A DNA stretch of 64,000 nucleotides from Crambe crambe (Eukaryota; Porifera; Demospongiae; Poecilosclerida; Crambeidae). A program made the translations under genes and the position numbers. Shown here in pieces: positions 545 through 25,368 of this stretch. The stretch is taken from the NCBI GenBank assembly GCA_963924555.1, contig OZ004581.1, positions 5,371,338 to 5,435,337 on the forward strand, written 5' to 3'. How positions within the stretch are numbered: position 1 is the first letter of the stretch; every line of letters begins with the position of its first letter. The notes beneath the pieces are model-generated. The model saw only the letters and a program-made list of their open reading frames with translations. It made no database searches and had not been told where the DNA came from.

Positions 545-745
545 GTGATATAATGTCCTTCTGGAAGTTGGCCTCCAAGCTGATGGCTTTTGTATCCGTG
601 CATGTATGTATGTTTGTGATAGAATGTCCTTTGGCAGTTGGCCTCCAAGCTGACTTTGTCAATGGTGTTTATATTTGTGTTATAGATTGTATGTACGTAT
701 GTGATAGAATTTCCTTCTGGTAGTAGGCCTCCAAGCTGACTTTGT
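545..745. repeat. Three-copy imperfect tandem repeat (about 75-85 bp)
   Basis: The core TTGGCCTCCAAGCTGA recurs three times (near 569, 639 and, as TAGGCCTCCAAGCTGA, near 725). Each is preceded by GTGATA(G)AATNTCCTT, and the second and third also by TATGTATGT-like runs. The copies differ at several positions, so this is an old minisatellite. There are no regular spacers and no CRISPR-like conservation. Confidence 0.75.
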
Positions 746-2054
746 TGAAGGCGATCAGATTTTAGTATACCTTCATGAAAGACTTTTACTAACCACACCC
801 TCAATGTCACTCGTGCAGGTTTGTAGCAAATCAATAATGCAAGCACAATCTTACTAATATCATACATTATAGATCTCTACTTATGTTGGTATGGCAGAAA
901 TGGGGAGGTATATTTTTCTGTTAGGAGTACAGCCGGGTAAAATGGAGAAACAGCTACACATCGAGACGTCTGATTCAACTTGCTTTATCTAAATTTCCAT
1001 GTGCTCTCTAAAATTATTGTAGGTGGGACTGATTGTTTTCTTATAACAGCCCACTAGTTATTCCACTCAAGGTTGTAGAGTGAATTCTGCTGTTCAAAAC
1101 TGCCTTGCCATGCATCCATGCCTCTACTATTCAGTTCAATTCAGCAGTCTTAGTATAATCTAACAGCCCTCTATTCCATATACGTAGACATTGCCAGCTC
1201 ATGATTATCTTGGACTCAGCTGCTTCAAAACTAAAGTTTTCCACCTCCATGCCTCTACTACTCTGCAACTCTAAACTCGGAGCTTCCCTTGCATTATAAA
1301 GTATACAAGCAATAATTAGACCAACGCTATAGCGCACTATTGCTAACGCTTTTTAACGCCTAGATAAAGTGCGCTTTAGTGTGTATCTTCGTATAATGCA
1401 CATATGGGAAGCTTGACATATTATTGCGAGTTCACATGCTTTAGCAGATCATGCGTGTAATTGCGCGCTGAATTCTACACGGGACTCATAAGTCAAGATT
1501 ACAGGCAGGTAGAAGGCCTGGCGAGTATCTTGATGCTAATAAATAGATGAACAAGGAAATAAACTAGTAGAAAGTGGAATTATATTACACACTCTTCTCC
1601 AACAATTACCTGTATGACACTGTCTCTTAGACTCCAGAAAAGGTTGTTCGCCTGAAGGTCGTTTGCCTATCAGATAATATACTAATCATATTAGGTGATT
1701 ATAAGGCAGGTAGAAGTATTTTGATGGATGAAAACTATTTACAGGGAAAGTTATAAAAGCAGTACGTAGACAAATTAAAATCTTTAACTATAGGAACATA
1801 AAAATTACACACTCTCTTTCAACAATCTAATAATAACATTACTGATAAATGGATGAAAGTAATTTGGCTGCATATACTGTGGTGGCCATTTCCCAAAACA
1901 TTATTTATTTGTTCAACTGCACTCTCTAATACTACTAGGGGTGCATTAAATTCACTAACCTTACTTCATGCACACAAGCTTGGTCATCCTTTTTTTTTTT
2001 AAGCGAGTACTCACTGTGTATAATATCTATGCTGAGTCTTTAACTAACTGTAGC
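746..2054. other. Spacer, nothing recognised
   Basis: AT-rich sequence. A minus-strand frame at about 1131-1337 has no recognisable domain or splice context. A poly-T run sits near 1989-1999. Confidence 0.5.
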
Positions 2055-2452
2055 TACCGTACAGCGGGTTTTTTTCGGAGATAAAATATTTCGTTAATCA
2101 TCAAAGGACAACACAGATGAAGAATTACGGTAGTCTTTTATTCGGTACGGTATAGTTATTTTAGCACATGTGCAACAATATCTACGGACTTCGCTTCACA
2201 GCTGCTTCACTTGCATGCGTATATAGCCCTCTTTGCGATCGTGGTGATTTCTTAATTGATGGAATCTAGCTAGCTAAGTAGCTAGCTAAGAAGAAAGTGG
2301 ACCAGGAGGTTAGGTAAGTTCGTAGAATGTACGAACGTCTAAACGGTGGCTTTATTTGGAAAAAAAATTCGATAGAAAAATTTTCGGTAGATAGACTGAT
2401 TACCGAAATTACCGAATTTTTATCCCCACTGAAATTATCCCGCTGTATGGTA
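2055..2452. mobile_element. MITE with TACCGTACAGCGGG-type terminal inverted repeats
   Basis: The left end TACCGTACAGCGGG at 2055 is matched by CCCGCTGTATGGTA at 2439-2452, giving a non-coding element of about 400 bp. Inside the right end the text is rich in ACCGAAATT repeats. The TA at each outer edge is compatible with a TA target duplication. The ends resemble those of the elements at 41543-42157 and 57932-58446, so a related family is likely. There is no transposase. Confidence 0.6.
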
Positions 2453-3072
2453 CGTAACTATTCTTTGAAGTAGTAGAAACTGCTAAGCAAGTAAGGTAGT
2501 AGGCAAAGTATGATAAATGTTAATTGCTATGCTAAGATATGGTGCAAAGCATGCTTTGGTCGACCACCACCACCAACGAATTCATGATAATAAATTTTTC
2601 CCTGTTTTCTTTTGGAATGGAGTATATGGACTATGACTTGTAGCCACTATTTTTCATCAGAGAATTAAATGTATGTGTGATATGGTTAATTATCTGAATA
2701 GATCAACTTGCAGCTGTAACTACTATAGGGTATGTTCATGTAACATATTAAATTGATGGGCAAAGCAACATCAAAGTGCATGATTCTTTACATCTTTTGT
2801 AAGAGCAAGTACAGTACCAACTCATTTGTGCCGCAATACTATCCAAATACTATTAACAATAGCTTACACAAACAAGCCAATAAGTAGTATAGACTATAGA
2901 CCTTTGTAAGTATCACTATGCTTTAAGCAACAGTTCTAATTAACCATGCTTTTCTTCTTGATGTCCAAAAAACAGTAAAGAAATGAATAAGGCAGATGAC
3001 CATTGAACATTTACAACATGTTAGTCTTTAAGATGCATCAGCATGATGAAAAAAATCATGTGGAGTGATACA
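2453..3072. other. Spacer, nothing recognised
   Basis: No exon-like segment, RNA gene or obvious repeat was recognised in this AT-rich stretch. Confidence 0.5.
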
Positions 3073-3253
3073 TATAGGGATGACCATACAAAAAGTGAAG
3101 GAACAAGGATGAAATTGAGATTACAGAAGGATGAAAGTTGAATGTGGGCACACCACCTTATGACAGTGCATGTGTCCCAAGATTCGACTTCACCATTCTG
3201 TAATCTCAATTCCATCCCTGTTCTTTCAATTTTTTTGCATGGCCATCCCTATA
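3073..3253. repeat. Imperfect foldback, arms about 58 bp
   Basis: The left arm begins TATAGGGATGACCAT at 3073 and runs to TTACAGAAGG near 3130. It pairs with 3192-3253, which ends ATGGCCATCCCTATA. The arms carry several mismatches and flank a roughly 60-bp loop. The AGGGAT box near the tip is shared with the other hairpins of the window. Open frames that cross it on both strands are by-products of the inverted repeat. Confidence 0.7.
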
Positions 3254-3784
3254 TAGCTACATCATCCTACTTCTGTTGTTATTATTGTTTTGTTTTTTTC
3301 TACGTAGCTCTCTCAGTGGTGAAGGCAATGAATGGTAGTTAGTGACCAATCAGATTGTGGAACAAAAAAATATCTTCACACACTTAATTCATCACTAGCT
3401 ATAATAGTTAAATATCACATTCACTTGGTGGAAGTTTTGTTTTGTGACCAAAAAGATTAACTCAGTAGAGTAGTAAATATACAACATTCAAAAGACAAGC
3501 GAGCAAAGCAAGGTGCCAAGGCAGTAAAGCTGGAATGTATTGACTTATTGCAGTCAAGCAGTCCAACCAGAATACATGTCAGCCATAATTGAGTAGAAAG
3601 TAGAAAGGGCTAGCCTTTAAGCCACCAAGGAGACTACTCTCAATGTAATGGCCAATGAGATCAGCAGAAGTAGCCTTCGATAAATATGTGGCATTCCTAG
3701 CACTGGTAGTTTATGCAGTAACTAATTTGTAGTCAAATTTATTTGACTGCACATAACATAAAAATTATCAATATATCATCCAAG

Positions 3785-4690
3785 GAAGACCTGCCTGTGC
3801 GGAAAATGGAAAAGCTATTGAGCACTTTTTGGGAATTGTTCCTGCCAAAGAAGTCACAGCAAAAGCTCTAACTCAGTATATTTGCTTGATTTTCTTCAGG
3901 AATGTGGTATCCCAATTCAAAAATTGCGAGGACTGGTGGTTTGATGGTGCAAGAAGTCAGCTGAAATACAAGCTGTCCTTGAAGCACCTGAAATAGTAGT
4001 TACTAAGCCTAGTGATCACACAGTAGCCAAGCTCCATGGTTCACTACAGTCTAAGGAGCTTATATCTTACTACTGTGCCTGTAATGGTAAGTGGGACTAT
4101 CAAGTGCCTTCAAGAGCTCAAAGAGCATCCTGCAATAAGTACTTGAGACATGCCAGTCTCTTCAAGATGTTAGTGTATCAGAAGCTGACAAGACATCTTT
4201 GAATCTATCGCCCCTACATACAGAGTGTAATAGATCACATTTCAAGCCGAATGGAATCACCTGATGCTTTCTCAATATTTTTGATCCAATTCATTTACCT
4301 GATTCTGAAGAATCTCTATCAACTTATGGTATGGAGAAGTTGCACACCCTTACTGATTTTTATGGAAAGGAGCAGACATTGTCCTTTGAAGGTACGTAAC
4401 ACTGGAGTTTCAAAGCCAGCTGTTGATCCTGACCAAGCAGAAGCAGAATGGGAAATCTTTCTTAGGATTCTGCATAGATCTGAATCAGGGCTTCAGAACA
4501 TAGTGACCACCTTTTTAGCTAGCAGTGATTTAGTAGTTGGCTTTCAAACCTAGCATCCTTAGCTAGGTTTGCAGTGGTCTTACCTATGATAACAGCAACA
4601 ATTGAGCGAAGCTTCAGTGACATGAAGCTAATTAAAACTCAACTGAGGAGCAGACTTGGTGAAGAAATCCCGAATCATAAGATTTAGATA
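3785..4690 (+). pseudogene. hAT-superfamily transposase relic
   Basis: A decayed transposase copy is read in pieces. Near 3810 the frame gives a segment starting NGKAIEHFLGIVPAKEV, which fits the region upstream of the hAT catalytic core. Near 4563-4650 the frame LARFAVVLPMITATIERSFS, followed by DMKLIKTQLRSRL, is the conserved C-terminal dimerisation region of hAT transposases (serine-rich ERxFS motif). Between them a fragment with a YG..L..L motif near 4320 is visible. Multiple stops and frameshifts separate the pieces, so no functional enzyme remains. No terminal repeats or 8-bp duplication could be assigned. Known of the family: hAT enzymes excise and insert DNA with 8-bp target duplications. 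The hAT assignment rests mainly on the C-terminal motif. Confidence 0.7.
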
Positions 4691-4729
4691 GTATCACTCA
4701 GTATTGGAAGGAGAAAAAAACTAATGATA

Positions 4730-5062
4730 TAACATGTATGGCTGCTTGTGAATTACTTTGGGGGGGGAAGCTTCCCCCCTGCATCCCCCAGTATGGTTTG
4801 ACAACCAGTAGGTATGATGCCTTGTGCTTGCTTCAGTAAGTCTATCTGAGAATTCTAGCCCCCTACCTACAGCATGATAAGCTGGCCATCAGCTCTGAGA
4901 GCTTGTTTTTATATTTTGAAGTGATTCTTTGGATATCTCACCTTTGGTAATAGGCAATGCTTCTCATATTTCTTCCCAGTAATGTAGACATATAAAATAA
5001 CCCAAAATGTAATAAACTGAGAAAAGATTTTTTTTTTTTCATTTCAGGTACCCTTTAAAGTT
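4730..5062. mobile_element. Truncated arm of the TTAA foldback family
   Basis: The segment from the CCCCCAGTATGG area to the end TACCCTTTAA at about 5052-5061 resembles the inner and right parts of the complete element at 40133-41163. Shared blocks include CAGCATGATAAGCTGG, TTCTTCCCAGTAATGTAG and GTAATAAACTGAGAAA. Only one terminus is kept, so this is a truncated copy. It directly follows the hAT relic. Confidence 0.6.
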
Positions 5063-5397
5063 TCATTTCAGCTTAAAAAAAGAGAAGATTTTTGACCTGT
5101 GGGTCCAAGTGACCCCTCTGTACCTCAATTAAGTCTCATGTACTAGGCAGAACTCGTAGCTTACCAGAATGAAGACATGATTAAGAGAATATAGAAGGGG
5201 CCCTGAATAAGAAATTTATACTCTTTTGCTTGAATCTGTTTCAATATGACTTCCTTTAAAATTAATGTGTTAATAGCAAAGAAGCTACCATTACTATAAT
5301 GGCCAGAAATTTAAATTTGGTGAATGCAATAGCTAATTAATTCTGGAGGCTCCTTCTACAGAAAAATGTAATGAACCATTGATCAACACCATCGAGA

Positions 5398-5592
5398 TCT
5401 AAATAAAAAGTGAAGTAGGGATAGCCATAAAACTTACTATTCCTATCACTCCTAGCCCTCCTAATTTATAATCACACCTATATCACCCAACTTAAATCCC
5501 TACTTCACTCCCAAGTGAGTCAAGTAACCCATCACCAAACTCAGGAACCACAGCAATATTACAAAACTACTATTCCTACTTCACTTTTAGGC
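5398..5592. repeat. Degenerate foldback of the AGTAGGGAT class
   Basis: AAATAAAAAGTGAAGTAGGG at 5401 is mirrored by CTATTCCTACTTCACTTTTA near 5569-5589. The interior pairs poorly. Beyond it, 5640-5715 (GCCATCCCAACTTCTC, then TTTTTTATTTAGAATA) resembles the isolated arm end at 25922-26010. This is an eroded member of the hairpin class. Confidence 0.5.
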
Positions 5593-6783
5593 CTCCTTGG
5601 TGATGGGTACAGGTAAGGGGTCACTTGTTGCTGAACTTTTTCAAACTGTACACATTGGCCATCCCAACTTCTCTTTTTTATTTAGAATACGTATTTTTTT
5701 TTCCTTTTTCTCTAATAGTTAGGTAGATATGTGAAACAATCGTGGGTTTTTACGTACAAGTGTGAAAGTTGGCATACTCAAATAACATGATCCTAAGAGT
5801 AATTTCAGAAGTGTAGCCACCTTGGATTTGACCTTTGGTGATCTCTAGGTGCTCATTATCGGTAAGAAATGAATTCTCTACCCATTATATCGCTTAATTT
5901 TGGTCAAGGGTGCTTAATATAAAGGTCTCGTTTTAGGAAGTTGAATCAAGTCCATATCTTCTTCTGGTCATGGTCATTTTAGAATTAACATCAAGAACAG
6001 CAGTAAATTTGCCATCCAAGTCCGTTTGGCATTTCTAGACAAAGATAATAGATTAGATGCGTACATGGCAGTTTTCAGTTGAATGTTCACCACAACATTG
6101 GCACAAAGCAGTGCATTTCAGGGCCGCTTTCTTGCATTTGCACTGGCTTCTGCATCCTTTCTTGCAGCCACAGCACAGTATTTCTCTTGATGAAGCATTA
6201 ACCTTGTCCACAATGCTGCTGGGATCAACCCATCCCCAGTCCCCAGGAGATGGCAGGTTAAGAGTTACTTGAAGCATCTTGCCCCAGCAATATCCACCTT
6301 GGTACACAGCCCTTTTAATATGTGCTGCTCTGGTAGGAGGAATGGCATCCATGGCTCAACCTTTCTTTGTGAATAGGTGCTTTCGACACTCATCTATGCT
6401 CACCAGAGTACTGGTGTGGTCATAAAGCAGGATTGTAAACCATTCTAGCACAGCTATATCTGCATCAGACACAAGAGCTGGTCCAGTGGAAAGAGAAAGG
6501 AAAGTTGGTGTTGCTTCCTCATATGCCTTCCAAGTATCCTATGGTGTCTTCTTTCCCATGGTAGCAAAAAATGAAACTGTATCACACCCAGTATAGGTAT
6601 GGAACAATGTTAGGCAGAGCCAGGGACTTATTGGGCCCAAGGGATGCTGCAATTTCATGTGCAGGAATGTACCAGAAATGTTTGCCCGTCCCAAATGCTA
6701 ACCATGGCTCCCTTACATCTACCCTGCCACATACAAGATAACCACATCACTGTCGACTGTACACAGTAGAATCTTGTGAAAAC

Positions 6784-7345
6784 CTTCATTGGTCTGTGTT
6801 TCATATTTCTACAGAATCCAGTCATAATCTATCCATACAGTCCTCACTAAACAAGTACCAACTTTGACTTTAAGTCGATAGCTTTCGTACCTTTTAAGCG
6901 ATCATCCAGAGCTATGGTGATGGGTAACATGAGCTAGTAACTTACTTTCATGCTGCAGTTGATAAAAATACGTGCTGTTGCAAGTCCTGTTTTCTCTCTA
7001 GAGCTTGTAAGTTTTTTTCAATGCAGCAATTTTCTTAAACTTCGTTTATGTTTGTTTACTCTGTAGACTTTCCGTATACTAAGTAGCCGATAATTGGTGC
7101 TGCGACGGTCGATAATCGAGGACTTATGCTAGGAGGAGACCACCTAGCTATTTGCCAAAAAAATGGCAACAATTTTTGCGGGATATAGCTAGTGCTAACA
7201 AGACCAAGTTGTTTACTTTTCTGGTGAAGCACATTAGCACAAATGGTTTAGAGGTGGTGTATCCCTCCAAGGGACACCAGTCATCTGGCACATGAAGAGG
7301 CTGATATGAGGATGATCTTACACATTGCAGATGCAGTGAATGAAG
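6784..7345. other. Inverted 562-bp segment with CTTCATT/AATGAAG breakpoints
   Basis: CTTCATT at 6784-6790 and AATGAAG at 7339-7345 are exact inverted copies at the two edges. Flipping this interval restores two independent continuities. The PIN-like gene becomes continuous on the minus strand, and the left end of the TA element becomes continuous with its interior (GGTCTGTG joined to ACTGTGTCCG), exactly as in the unrearranged copy at 24510-25313. Confidence 0.88.
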
Positions 7346-7432
7346 ACTGTGTCCGAAAAGTATCATCTGAATCCAACGAAAAGGAGAGCTTCTGCAGCAG
7401 TTCCATTCCACTGTTAAATTATGAAGCAGTTT

Positions 7433-9296
7433 TAGTCCAGTCAATTTATAGTTTGACCCATAAGTAATTGCAACATATGGTTTCTCAACTGTTTCCTACA
7501 CAGAAAAATGTGCTCTCTAACATACTAAAAATCTTAAGGAATCTGATGAGGGGAAACCACAGAAAAAGGGTCACACATTGATCAAAATATGCAATAATTG
7601 CAACAAATGATTTCTCAACAGTTTCTTACACAGAAAAATGTACTTTGTAGCATACTGTTGAAGAGAAAACACAGAAATAGGGTCATGCACTGCGAAAAAG
7701 TTAGTTATCATCATATCCTTGGTTCATTTAGTTATTCAACAACATCATCAGAATTATCGTCGTCACTATCATCTTCATTTGGGGATGAGTTCATACAGCC
7801 AGACCCATTGCAATTTCCACACACAATAGAGCATCTAATGGCATGCTTTCTGCAGGTACATCTCATAGTACCACAATCTGTTTGACAGTTGCAGCGGATG
7901 ATGCGCAAAAGATCATCAGGAACAGGCATTAAATCAGATAAGTCTTTAAAGTCTGTGGTTGAATATGCGATTTGCTGGTGGCCACTTTCTCACAAAAGCT
8001 CTTATACCAAGAGACTCCCCAGGTTTCCCATTATACATGGCAACCAAGACTTGCTCCCCCGCAGCTGAAATTTCTTCAATAGAAGCTGATGGCAAGTTAA
8101 AGACTTCAGCGTGACTACAGAAGTGATTATTTTCTCTATATTTCTTCAGAGAGTAACCTTTTCCATGAAGTTGGGATGTTGTATCACATCCAAGAATCGC
8201 ATGTAGAAAAAGGATATGAGTACAAACCTCAGGGCCTAGGTGTTCTTTGACTGCCTGTATATTCCAACAAGCTACAAGATTCCAAACTTGCATGGTAAAT
8301 TAGAAGAGCGAGCAAATCTGTATCATCAGCAATCAATACAGTGTTCATAGTTGAGGCTGACTCCACTGATTTCTGCACTATTAGGAGGTCAACATCTCCT
8401 GTAGCATGATAAGTCCTGCAATTCTTTTCCATGAGCTTTGCACTAAGCAAATTGATAAACTGTTGCTTTTTATCCTTGTTTGCAAGAAACTGAGCCTTAC
8501 TCATGGTAAGATGCATGCTTTCTGTAAAGGTAACAGTAGCTCTTATTTGCCCCTTGGTTCGTCTCTGATATGTCGTGTCTTTGGTGGATTTGGATTGATA
8601 ACCATCAAAAACAACAACTGCATTCCCATATTTCCTTGTGACATACTCAGTATACACTGTGCAAATTTCCTTAGACGTGGCTCCTTTGGTCCATGCGATT
8701 CGCTGAAGTAGTGCTCCTCCATCCAACACATACTGGAGCTAACTAGATAATCCAGGAATGCTTTGAGGCAAAAGAGACCAGATTGCATTTGCTAGCACAG
8801 GCTTTTTATGTATCCCGAAGAAATTGTGGACCACTAAATAAAGCTGGTAGATAACTGCACAATTCATACTTAAAAATAGCTTCCAGGTTGTCTTGAGATT
8901 TCGTAACAAGAGTGTTAATTGCTCATCTAAATCTATTCTTGTGATCAGATATCTTAATACATAGTGCTAAGAGAGCGATTTTTAATTTTTTGGTTATTTT
9001 TGACCCATTTATAAGGTTACTACTCAACAGATTCTTTAGGAGTGATAGCTAGTGCATATTTTTCTGTGTATTTTTCTATAGTTGAGAAACCATTTTTTGA
9101 TATTACCCTTAAAATTTAAGCAATTATTGCATTTTTAGTCAACGTGTGACCAATTTTCTGTGTTCTCCCCTCATAAGATTCCTTAAGACTTTTAGTATGT
9201 TATAGAGCACATTTTTCTGTATAGGACACAGTTGAGAAACCTTGTGTTGCAATTACTTATGGGTTGACCCCAAAATTGTCATAAAATGACTGGACT
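7433..9296. mobile_element. TIR element carrying a PIN-like/CXC gene
   Basis: The left end AGTCCAGTCA near 7434 and the right end TGACTGGACT at 9287-9296 open inverted repeats of about 170 bp. Each end also holds a second, diverged copy of a roughly 130-bp subterminal block (TTTCTCAAC then CACAGAAAAAT). GTTT flanks both sides (7429-7432 and 9297-9300) and occurs once in the empty site at 24952-24955, so a 3-4 bp target duplication is likely. The only gene-like content is the minus-strand PIN-like/CXC pseudogene at about 7732-8945. No known transposase family was recognised. Either this family supplies the mobility function or a host-type gene was captured. Confidence 0.85.
7732..8945 (-). pseudogene. 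PIN-like nuclease-fold plus CXC gene inside the TIR element
   Basis: Reading the complement gives, in order, EAIFKYELCSYLPALFSG (near 8900), KPVLANAIWSLLPQSI, then YVLDGGALLQRIAW, and the PIN-like core with acidic residues in VVVFDGYQ, GDVDLLIV and ADDTDLLALL. Downstream comes HAILGCDTTSQLHGKG, and finally a CXC-type cluster IRCNCQTDCGTMRCTCRK followed by an acidic tail. The order of motifs matches the neighbouring pseudogene, but the sequences belong to a different subfamily. One stop and at least two frameshifts break it (overlapping frames near 8729/8543 and 8293/8229), and the stretch before the CXC cluster is shortened. The PIN-like acidic residues suggest a metal-dependent nuclease fold; activity is unproven. 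Cellular role unknown; nuclear location is likely if it acts on DNA. Confidence 0.8.
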
Positions 9297-9860
9297 GTTT
9301 ATGGTAGAAATGCTTCGTTCATTTTTTATATAATTTGTTATGATGATGTATTTTATAGCAAAAAATAGTATAAAAGTATCTTTTTAAGGGCCCTAACATG
9401 TAGTGGAGCAAAAGTGAAAGAAAAGAATGGAACAGACGATGATTGATATTATGATTTTCAACGGGTGGCCGATAATTGGTGTCGGTGGTCGATCAATGAT
9501 ATTTTAGTTGACGTAGTAGATTCAGCATAGCAAAATTTCTATCCAATTGTGAGGAAAATAATTTATATGATGTTATAGAGGATGAAATTATCTTTCTTAT
9601 GGTTGTTGTTTGAGACTTTGATGACCATCGGTGAGGGAAATATGGTGTGAGGGGCGAAGTATGGTCGATAATCGAGGACTTACGCTAATGCCTTTTGCAC
9701 GCTTGTTTCTTGCTTGAGATTTCAAGCTATTCTCATGGTATTGATCCCAGACAATATCAACTCGACGATGTGCTGCAGCTTGGCTTCAATGTATGGCAAG
9801 AAGACTTGACTGCATAGTCATCAAAAGTCTTGGCACCAAGAGGTTTTAGGAAGTTAACCA

Positions 9861-10275
9861 TCTAGAATAGTTATACTTCAGTGTCTGATAGCAATTCTCC
9901 AGACAGCTTAGGAGATCAGCCTTGGTTCCCTGTCTCAACTTGCCAAGGTTTTAGCTATAGCTATGTCTCTTAATACCTCAAGAGCACTGACATTCTTAAC
10001 TAGATCTTGGTTTAATAGCTAGCTTTGTATCAAGTGGGACAAAAAGGGTGTGGTTAGGGGAAGTGGGCATGGCTAGGCCAAAATTTTTCCACGCACATGT
10101 TCAAGCACCCCCTATGATAAGATCCTGGCTACACACCTGAATGACAGGTAAAGGATTATAGCACAATCAATTTTGAGCAGTGTGGTATAAATAAGTTATT
10201 TGATGATGATCAGATGATGATGATGATGAATGACCTGGTCTGGTTATGAATCAAGTCTCGATGAACACTAATCAA
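9861..10275. other. Spacer upstream of the PIN-like pseudogene
   Basis: No further family motif was recognised upstream of LGAKTFDDYAV (complement of about 9845-9810). A short GAT-rich run lies at 10201-10230. Confidence 0.45.
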
Positions 10276-11710: not shown

Positions 11711-11998
11711 ACAAGTAAGTGAAAAAGCATTTCGTGAAATGAAAAAAGATGTAGGGATGACCACTGCTCAAAAAAGTAAGGAAACAAGAAGGATGGAATC
11801 TTTGTTCTGTATATCCAGCCAACAATCCCTACATATACGTACATTACTGCACTATAATCTGAAGCTACACGTATATGTAGGGATTGTTGGCTGGATATAC
11901 AGAACAAAGATTCCATCCTTCTTATTTCCTTACTTTTTTGAGCAGTGGTCATCCCTACATCTTTTTTCATTTCACGAAATGCTTTTTCACTTACTTGT
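11711..11998. repeat. Long hairpin, arms about 135 bp (ACAAGTAAGT ends)
   Basis: The ends ACAAGTAAGTGAAAAAGC at 11711 and GCTTTTTCACTTACTTGT at 11998 pair, and the arms match nearly perfectly up to a loop of roughly 40 bases near 11845-11875. Each arm contains GTAGGGAT near its base and ATCCCTAC near the loop. It is absent from the paralogous block near 55950, so it inserted after duplication or was lost there. A single diverged arm is found at 36347-36470. Confidence 0.9.
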
Positions 11999-24236: not shown

Positions 24237-25368
24237 ACAAGTGAGAGTTAATACATTTCTTCTAAATGAAAGAGTGATGTAGGCTTGAGTACATGGCTAT
24301 AAAAAGTACGGAAACAAGGTGCTGGCTATGTACTGACCCTACATTGCTGCATGGACTGCTCTACTGTCATAAAATTGACATAAACCCTACATAGCTGCTG
24401 CCATACTATCCTTTTTGGCAGCGATGTAGGGTTTATGTCAATTTTATGACAGCGATGTAGGGTCAGTACATAGCCAGCACCTTGTTTCCATACTTTTTAT
24501 AATCATGTAGCGTAAGTCCTCGATTATTGACCATCACCGATTATCGACCGTTGCAGCACCAATTATCGGCTACTTAGTATACGGAAAGTCTACGGTAGTA
24601 AACAAACGTAAACGGAGTCTAAGAAAATGGCTGGATTGAAAAATATGAAAAACTTACAAGTTCTAGAGAGAAAACAGGACTTCAACAGCACGTATTTATC
24701 AACTGCAGTATGAAAGTAAGTTACTAGCTCATCGGCATGGCTCTGGATGATCGCTTAAAAGGTACGAAAGCTATCGACTTAAAGTCAAAGTTGGTGCTTG
24801 TTTAGTGAGGACTGTATGGATAGATTATGACTGGATTCTGTAGAAATATGAAACACAGACCAATGAAGACTGTGTCCGAAAAGTATCATCTGAATCCAAC
24901 GAAAAGGAGAGCTTCTGCAGCAGTTCCATTCCACTGTTAAATTATGAAGCAGTTTATGGTAGAAATGCTTCGTTCATTTTTTATATGATGTATTTTATAG
25001 TATAAAAGTATCAAGGGCTCTAACACGTAGTGGAGCAAAAATGAAAGAAAAGAATGGAACAGACAATGATTGATATTATGATTTTCAACGGGTGGCCGAA
25101 AATTGGTGTCAGTGGTCGATCAATGATTTTTTAGTTGACGTAGTAGATTCAGCATACTAAAATTTCTATCCAATTGTGAGGAAAATAATTTATATGATGT
25201 TATAGAGGATGAATTGATCTTTCCTATGGTTATTGTTTGAGACTTTTGACGACCATCGGTGAGGGAAATATGGTGCGAGGGGCAAAGTATGGTCGATAAT
25301 CGAGGACTTACGCTACTCAAGCCTACATCACTCTTTCATTTAGAAGAAATGTTTTTACTCTCACTTGT
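24237..25368. repeat. Foldback split by the TA element
   Basis: ACAAGTGAGAG at 24237 pairs with CTCTCACTTGT ending at 25368, but the right arm is interrupted between 24509 and 25314. Without the insertion the arms pair like those of the sibling at 15725-16124 (AGGCTTGAGTACATG against CATGTACTCAAGCCT). Confidence 0.88.
24510..25313. mobile_element. TA-target TIR element, copy 1 (complete, non-autonomous)
   Basis: The ends GCGTAAGTCCTCGATTATTG and CGATAATCGAGGACTTACGC form a 25-bp terminal inverted repeat flanked by TA at 24508-24509 and 25314-25315. The sibling hairpin at 16073-16079 shows the site before insertion. Subterminal ATTATCG words recur at both ends. No transposase frame is present. 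This intact copy is the key to decoding the scrambled copy at 6791-9685. Confidence 0.92.

Follow-up and report, generated by a model that had tools for sequence, protein, structure and literature searches.

Structure of the element and its insertion site

The window analyzed here is a stretch of 64,000 nt from the 143 Mb genome of the sponge Crambe crambe (contig C1:5371338-5435337). Between positions 7433 and 9297 it contains an element with inverted ends, flanked by a short duplication and enclosing the broken remains of a single gene, which is read on the minus strand. The features of the locus are as follows, in window coordinates; residue numbers refer to the protein of an intact relative, L068, described below.

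6089..6781, minus strand: relic of lineage B, nuclease end and CXC
7131..7371, plus strand: inverted segment from the middle of the lineage B nuclease relic, HEEADMRMILHIADAV, adjoining the insertion point
7430..7432, no strand: left target duplication TTT (GTTT, 7429-7432, if 4 bp)
7433..9297, minus strand: internally deleted, non-autonomous DNA transposon copy
7433..7601, plus strand: left terminal inverted repeat, TAGTCCAGTCA...
7465..7656, plus strand: left subterminal repeat block, a 62-nt unit present twice (7465-7526 and 7595-7656; 87%)
7783..7938, minus strand: remains of the CXC/eight-cysteine cluster at the C-terminus, matching residues 1409-1460
7947..8266, minus strand: second part of the nuclease relic, in two frames, containing GCDTTS (residues 1251-1362)
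8265..8939, minus strand: first part of the putative XPG/FEN1-like nuclease relic (residues 1006-1236)
8910..8916, no strand: internal deletion junction in common with copies L034 and L035, from the alignment on L031
9050..9256, minus strand: right-end repeat blocks, 9050-9070 with 9203-9223 and 9080-9106 with 9230-9256
9120..9297, minus strand: right terminal inverted repeat, ...TGACTGGACT(G)
9298..9300, no strand: right target duplication TTT (GTTT, 9297-9300, if 4 bp)
9687..9944, minus strand: beginning of the nuclease relic of lineage B
24862..25315, plus strand: empty site, a related copy of the flanks without the element

The inverted ends are imperfect and about 170-178 bp long, positions 7434-7601 aligning with 9120-9296 at 85% over 178 columns (E 1e-54). 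The inverted ends with subterminal repeat blocks described in a first-pass annotation of this DNA are therefore real, with the borders corrected to 7433-9297. The window copy starts with TAG and finishes with CTG; the remaining copies with two ends read TAG...CTA. Its flanking duplication is TTT if the final base belongs to the element and GTTT otherwise. Because the base following GGACT is an A in all eight other copies with equal flanks, we counted this base as the element's own, which disfavors a 4-bp duplication. Of the 3-4 bp GTTT duplication proposed before, the short duplication itself stands, and it is more likely the 3-bp TTT, in line with nine of the ten places at which both ends were located.

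The empty site that had been recognized in the same window was confirmed. Positions 24862-24986 correspond to the joined flanks, with 125 identical bases across the junction and a single GTTT, and the likeness continues to 25315 (91% over 482 columns in all). The neighboring relic, previously assigned to a second subfamily, is likewise real and belongs to lineage B of the same protein. Since pieces of lineage B lie on both flanks, the element is embedded in the remains of an older member of the wider family to which it belongs. A 25-nt direct repeat (7107-7131 and 9663-9687) bounds the inverted segment of this relic and is found again at 24508-24534 and 25289-25315. Elsewhere in the window, positions 11711-11998 form a near-perfect palindrome of 288 bp with 94% self-complementarity, which may be a small foldback element.

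Gene remnant within the copy

The gene remnant consists of four pieces in three frames on the minus strand (8939-8265, 8266-8009, 8006-7947 and 7938-7783), which match only parts of residues 1006-1460 of the L068 protein. Its first nuclease part contains the motifs LDGGALL, VVFDGY..K...RR, GDVDLLIV and ADDTDLL. The PIN/FEN-like and CXC content reported initially is thus real, the gene itself being broken. A single-sequence fold of the nuclease piece gave no usable model (pLDDT 41). In Pfam scans of the window pieces and of the long frames from related loci, nothing exceeded the cut-off, including any DDE or XPG family.

Copies with related ends in the genome

The left end, used as a query against the genome, yielded at least 44 matches, and a 15-base end pattern was found at 37 places, compared with 10 for the pattern read backwards. 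We analyzed 20 stretches around end matches (L031-L050), giving 21 places together with the window. Both ends could be located at ten of them (the window, L031-L036, L040, L041 and L049); L037, L038, L039, L042-L048 and L050, with one end missing or ends unpaired, were left out of the flank count. Equal 3-bp flanks were present at nine of the ten places (TTT, TAG, TAG, TAT, TTC, TAT, AAA, TTA and TAG), the exception being L049 with TTA and ATA. Judging by their common flanks, L040 and L042/L043 look like duplicates of one insertion.

The L068 protein matched 17 of the 21 places at an E-value of 1e-4; no match at this threshold was obtained in L038, L044, L047 and L050. The earlier suggestion that such genes multiply in the genome is borne out. 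Longer copies with like ends, L031 (4172 bp) and L032 (4548 bp), contain N-terminal and transposase parts as well. L032 matches residues 8-590 and 827-1460 of L068 in several frames. These matches include the cysteines of the N-terminus, the first Asp and the Glu of the candidate catalytic triad described below, the nuclease and the cysteine cluster, but the first of them stops just before the second Asp, which was covered by no match in any of the 21 places. Part of the transposase region is kept in L031, L032, L033, L037 and L049. L031 (C10) also has a 185-bp in-frame insertion without a stop at 3513-3697, and sequence matching this insertion is present at five further genomic places.

An intact relative and further lineages

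The intact relative L068 (C20) is a copy of 5299 bp at 652-5950, with the ends TAGTACAG and flanks TAT/TAT. It has a single uninterrupted frame of 1476 residues from the first ATG, with 62-68% identity to the family of the window element in the three parts compared. The protein is encoded at C20:5964179-5968606. A more distant relative, L071, has the ends TAGTCTGG and flanks ATA/ATA. The ends of L068 and L071 were located by a search requiring equal flanks and are illustrations, not independent tests. Lineage B comprises about 30 loci, among them L072, L073 and L074, with the parts in the same order as in L068. Lineage C is represented by L069 (C10:295500-302000), where one open frame of 1600 residues (1449-6248, minus strand) again shows the order transposase, nuclease, cysteine cluster. 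The ends of L069, L070, L072, L073 and L074 were not found within the stretches searched.

L068, L069 and L074, each with a long open frame and each from a different lineage, have 105 identical columns in a rough alignment, and both halves of the protein are present in each of them. Three acidic residues upstream of the nuclease, D435, D591 and E856 in L068, are identical in these three frames and are the candidate residues of a probable DDE transposase core. At the position of the second Asp, L072 has an N, and L069 aligns only loosely there (ADEGVY). A region upstream of the nuclease with all or part of the candidate D, D, E was found in L032, L068, L070, L071 and lineage B loci. Copies with a DDE transposase were named in the first-pass annotation as evidence against a nuclease-only element; copies with a probable one were found, their D, D, E having been picked by conservation and not from a fold. 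An NCBIfam scan of three proteins gave no match above a cut-off, the three pattern matches in viral contigs included no relative, a PDB search with one long frame alone returned nothing, and the transposase-region profile had one irrelevant hit in the PDB.

Downstream, the nuclease acids D1084, D1123, D1195, D1217, D1219 and D1278 are identical in L068, L069 and L074, where the motifs lie in one open frame with the transposase region. They appear in the order of acidic motifs that is general to the XPG/FEN1 family. The third motif reads EEAD in lineages B and C, a form known from XPG/FEN1 nucleases, and lineage A has a motif resembling GIGK, a further likeness to FEN1, EXO1 and XPG. In contrast to these enzymes, the nuclease is fused here to a cysteine cluster as well as a transposase region, and its similarity is too weak for the family models. 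A nuclease-CXC profile retrieved four PDB sequences, the first being IscB (E 0.055), which we took for a chance match. The other three were EXO1 (E 0.07-0.16); two stretches with motifs lined up in these matches, which are not significant alone. Motif order and the non-significant EXO1 match, used together, suggest a putative XPG/FEN1-like nuclease.

The C-terminal eight cysteines, within residues 1424-1456 of L068, are also identical in the three frames. Their spacing resembles that of CXC domains such as the pre-SET CXC, and preSET_CXC matched one of nine proteins scanned (E 0.012, below the curated cut-off). CXC spacing is also known from domains of the Tesmin/TSO1 type.

A probable transposase region resembling DUF6589, and the pairing of DUF6589 loci with helicases

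The transposase region distantly matches the Pfam family DUF6589 in two of five proteins scanned, L068 (E 9e-4) and L073 (E 0.002), both below the Pfam cut-off; L069, L074 and L072 gave no match. On L068 the match covers residues 608-819 and so falls after the second Asp and ahead of the Glu. Genome-wide, DUF6589 gave 110 matches, which were merged by hand to 81 loci. At least 40 of the 81 loci, and at least 33 of the best 36, have Helicase_C on the opposite strand within 2.5 kb, compared with about 0.5 loci expected by even spread. The DUF6589 loci adjoining Helicase_C (for example C3:7080171-7082212, C17:2223733-2225774 and C20:3734852-3736893) are probably elements of the AcademH type. This pairing at the strong loci suggests that DUF6589 may be the Academ transposase core. 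None of the papers searched mentions DUF6589.

Probable affiliation with the Academ superfamily

From these comparisons, we consider with good confidence that the element at 7433-9297 derives from a cut-and-paste transposon, most likely one of the Academ superfamily and its AcademX lineage, and is a decayed, non-autonomous copy with an internal deletion. The name is based on the architecture, namely a 3-bp duplication, a probable nuclease and a transposase region with a distant match to DUF6589, and the assignment was made by architecture and description. A transposase core that is accompanied by a helicase in some elements and by a nuclease in those of a sister lineage fits the written account of Academ. 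A Cys8 finger was reportedly given as an Academ feature in the first report of these elements, and the eight-cysteine cluster found here is a likeness to that description.

In the excerpt of PMC10045372 (citing Kojima 2020), AcademX elements are described as encoding a nuclease and generating target duplications of 3 or 4 bp, matching the DNA transposon with a probable nuclease and 3-bp duplications observed here. The longer copies, with 4.5-5.3 kb, come near the mean of 5565 bp that an excerpt of PMC10294476 gives for curated bivalve Academ elements. The window copy differs from AcademX in being a 1.9 kb deletion form whose nuclease frame is broken and whose transposase core is gone. The architecture hence fits a described superfamily, unlike the initial view that none was known with such a protein.

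AcademH elements encode a helicase and have duplications of 9 or 10 bp, according to the same excerpt of PMC10045372, whereas a probable nuclease and 3-bp duplications are found here. The distant transposase region would be a feature in common, provided that DUF6589 is the Academ core. We ruled out AcademH by the 3-bp duplications and by the rarity of nearby helicases: among the Helicase_C matches listed, one lies within 5 kb of any of the 59 nuclease-lineage loci, at a distance of about 4 kb.

Other combinations of a DDE transposase with additional modules were also considered. KDZ transposons are DDE elements with CXC modules. KolobokP, KolobokD and KolobokE are DDE transposons with extra nuclease modules (PMC9587614, excerpt). 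These and KDZ differ from the present elements in having other nuclease folds; they were set apart by description, and no match to them was seen. None of the papers searched combines a DNA transposon, a PIN domain, CXC and terminal inverted repeats.

Alternatively, the elements could form an unnamed DDE-XPG-CXC superfamily of their own, related to Academ but outside it. The agreement of the eight common cysteines with the reported Academ finger argues against such a separation, as do the nuclease and the duplications of 3 or 4 bp in the AcademX account (PMC10045372, excerpt). Pointing the other way, no curated family covers the protein, its DUF6589 similarity is weak (E 9e-4), and none of the 59 listed nuclease-lineage loci lies within 5 kb of a DUF6589 locus above the cut-off. 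On balance, we regard a superfamily outside Academ as distinctly unlikely.

Internal deletion forms and selection

In an alignment with L031 as reference, the same gap from position 372 to position 2309 appears in the window copy, L034 and L035. Relative to L031, the window copy lacks about 1.94 kb, which in L031 includes the cysteine motifs of the N-terminus and some of the transposase region. The three copies with this common junction occupy three sites with different duplications (TTT, TTC and TAT), from which it follows that the deletion form itself was copied. Copying of such a gutted form depends on protein from another source. Deletions of a different kind are present in L033 and L036. 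A second deletion form is represented by L040 (C10:2336203-2338169) and L041 (C17:2547796-2549825), which retain only the nuclease-CXC half (residues 930-1458); they are 93% alike and have related ends at different sites.

That two separate deletion forms (window/L034/L035 and L040/L041) keep the nuclease-CXC half without the transposase core would be expected if this half alone were the mobility protein of an undescribed element. The deletion forms L036 and L049, in contrast, have lost most of the nuclease instead, and the long open frames L068, L069 and L074 all contain both halves. The matches in the window copy, L034, L035, L040 and L041 are split over frames, with one long open piece in L035. 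In the nuclease part, dN/dS was 1.36 between the window copy and L035 and 1.1 between the window copy and L034, which likewise speaks against a nuclease acting alone, though the value was 0.64 for L034 and L035. Mobility by the nuclease-CXC half alone thus appears very improbable. The initial view of the PIN/CXC protein as the sole gene of an undescribed superfamily is most likely wrong, as longer relatives join the nuclease-CXC half to a probable DDE core.

Within L031, L032, L033 and L037, dN/dS of the nuclease part ranged from 0.54 to 1.75 with few changes, and between this group and the window/L034/L035 group from 0.40 to 0.83. The window remnant would therefore seem to have had no visible upkeep by selection after the deletion; the numbers are small and weak selection is possible. 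Between families, silent sites in the transposase and nuclease parts have reached saturation (pS 0.74-0.84), unlike replacement sites (pN 0.20-0.39), which indicates that both parts are kept by selection in active lineages.

Capture of a host PIN/CXC gene by an unrelated element with terminal inverted repeats, was raised in the first-pass annotation and is suggested by the window copy, in which nothing but fragments of nuclease and CXC can be seen. It is hardly credible and not needed, as the protein or pieces of it occur in about 30 lineage B loci and in 11 elements whose ends are paired and whose flanks are equal, including the two from the equal-flank search. Of the other option given there, that PIN-like/CXC proteins serve an undescribed mobile element, the link to a mobile element holds.

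Overall, it is unlikely either that the nuclease-CXC half acts alone, in deletion forms that arose at least twice and spread, the free protein perhaps helping or competing with the full-length one, or that the DDE-XPG-CXC group is separate from Academ.

Proposed mechanism

For a decayed AcademX copy mobilized in trans, we propose the following scheme. The full-length protein would consist of N-terminal zinc-finger-like cysteine motifs, the probable DDE core, the XPG/FEN1-like nuclease and the eight-cysteine cluster, in this order. Acting in trans, the transposase core would bind the long repeated ends, cut at TAG/CTA and insert the element with a 3-base stagger by DDE-type strand transfer. The probable role of the nuclease would be to process DNA flaps or strand intermediates by trimming or resolving them, and the cysteine cluster may bind zinc and probably DNA. 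The window copy would have lost the transposase core, then spread by protein made elsewhere, after which the leftover nuclease frame decayed.

What had looked like a new class of mobile element is removed by this interpretation, the nuclease-only copy being what an internal deletion leaves. The intact relative L068, two further lineages and the deletion forms, all from one genome, provide material for asking what role the nuclease plays.
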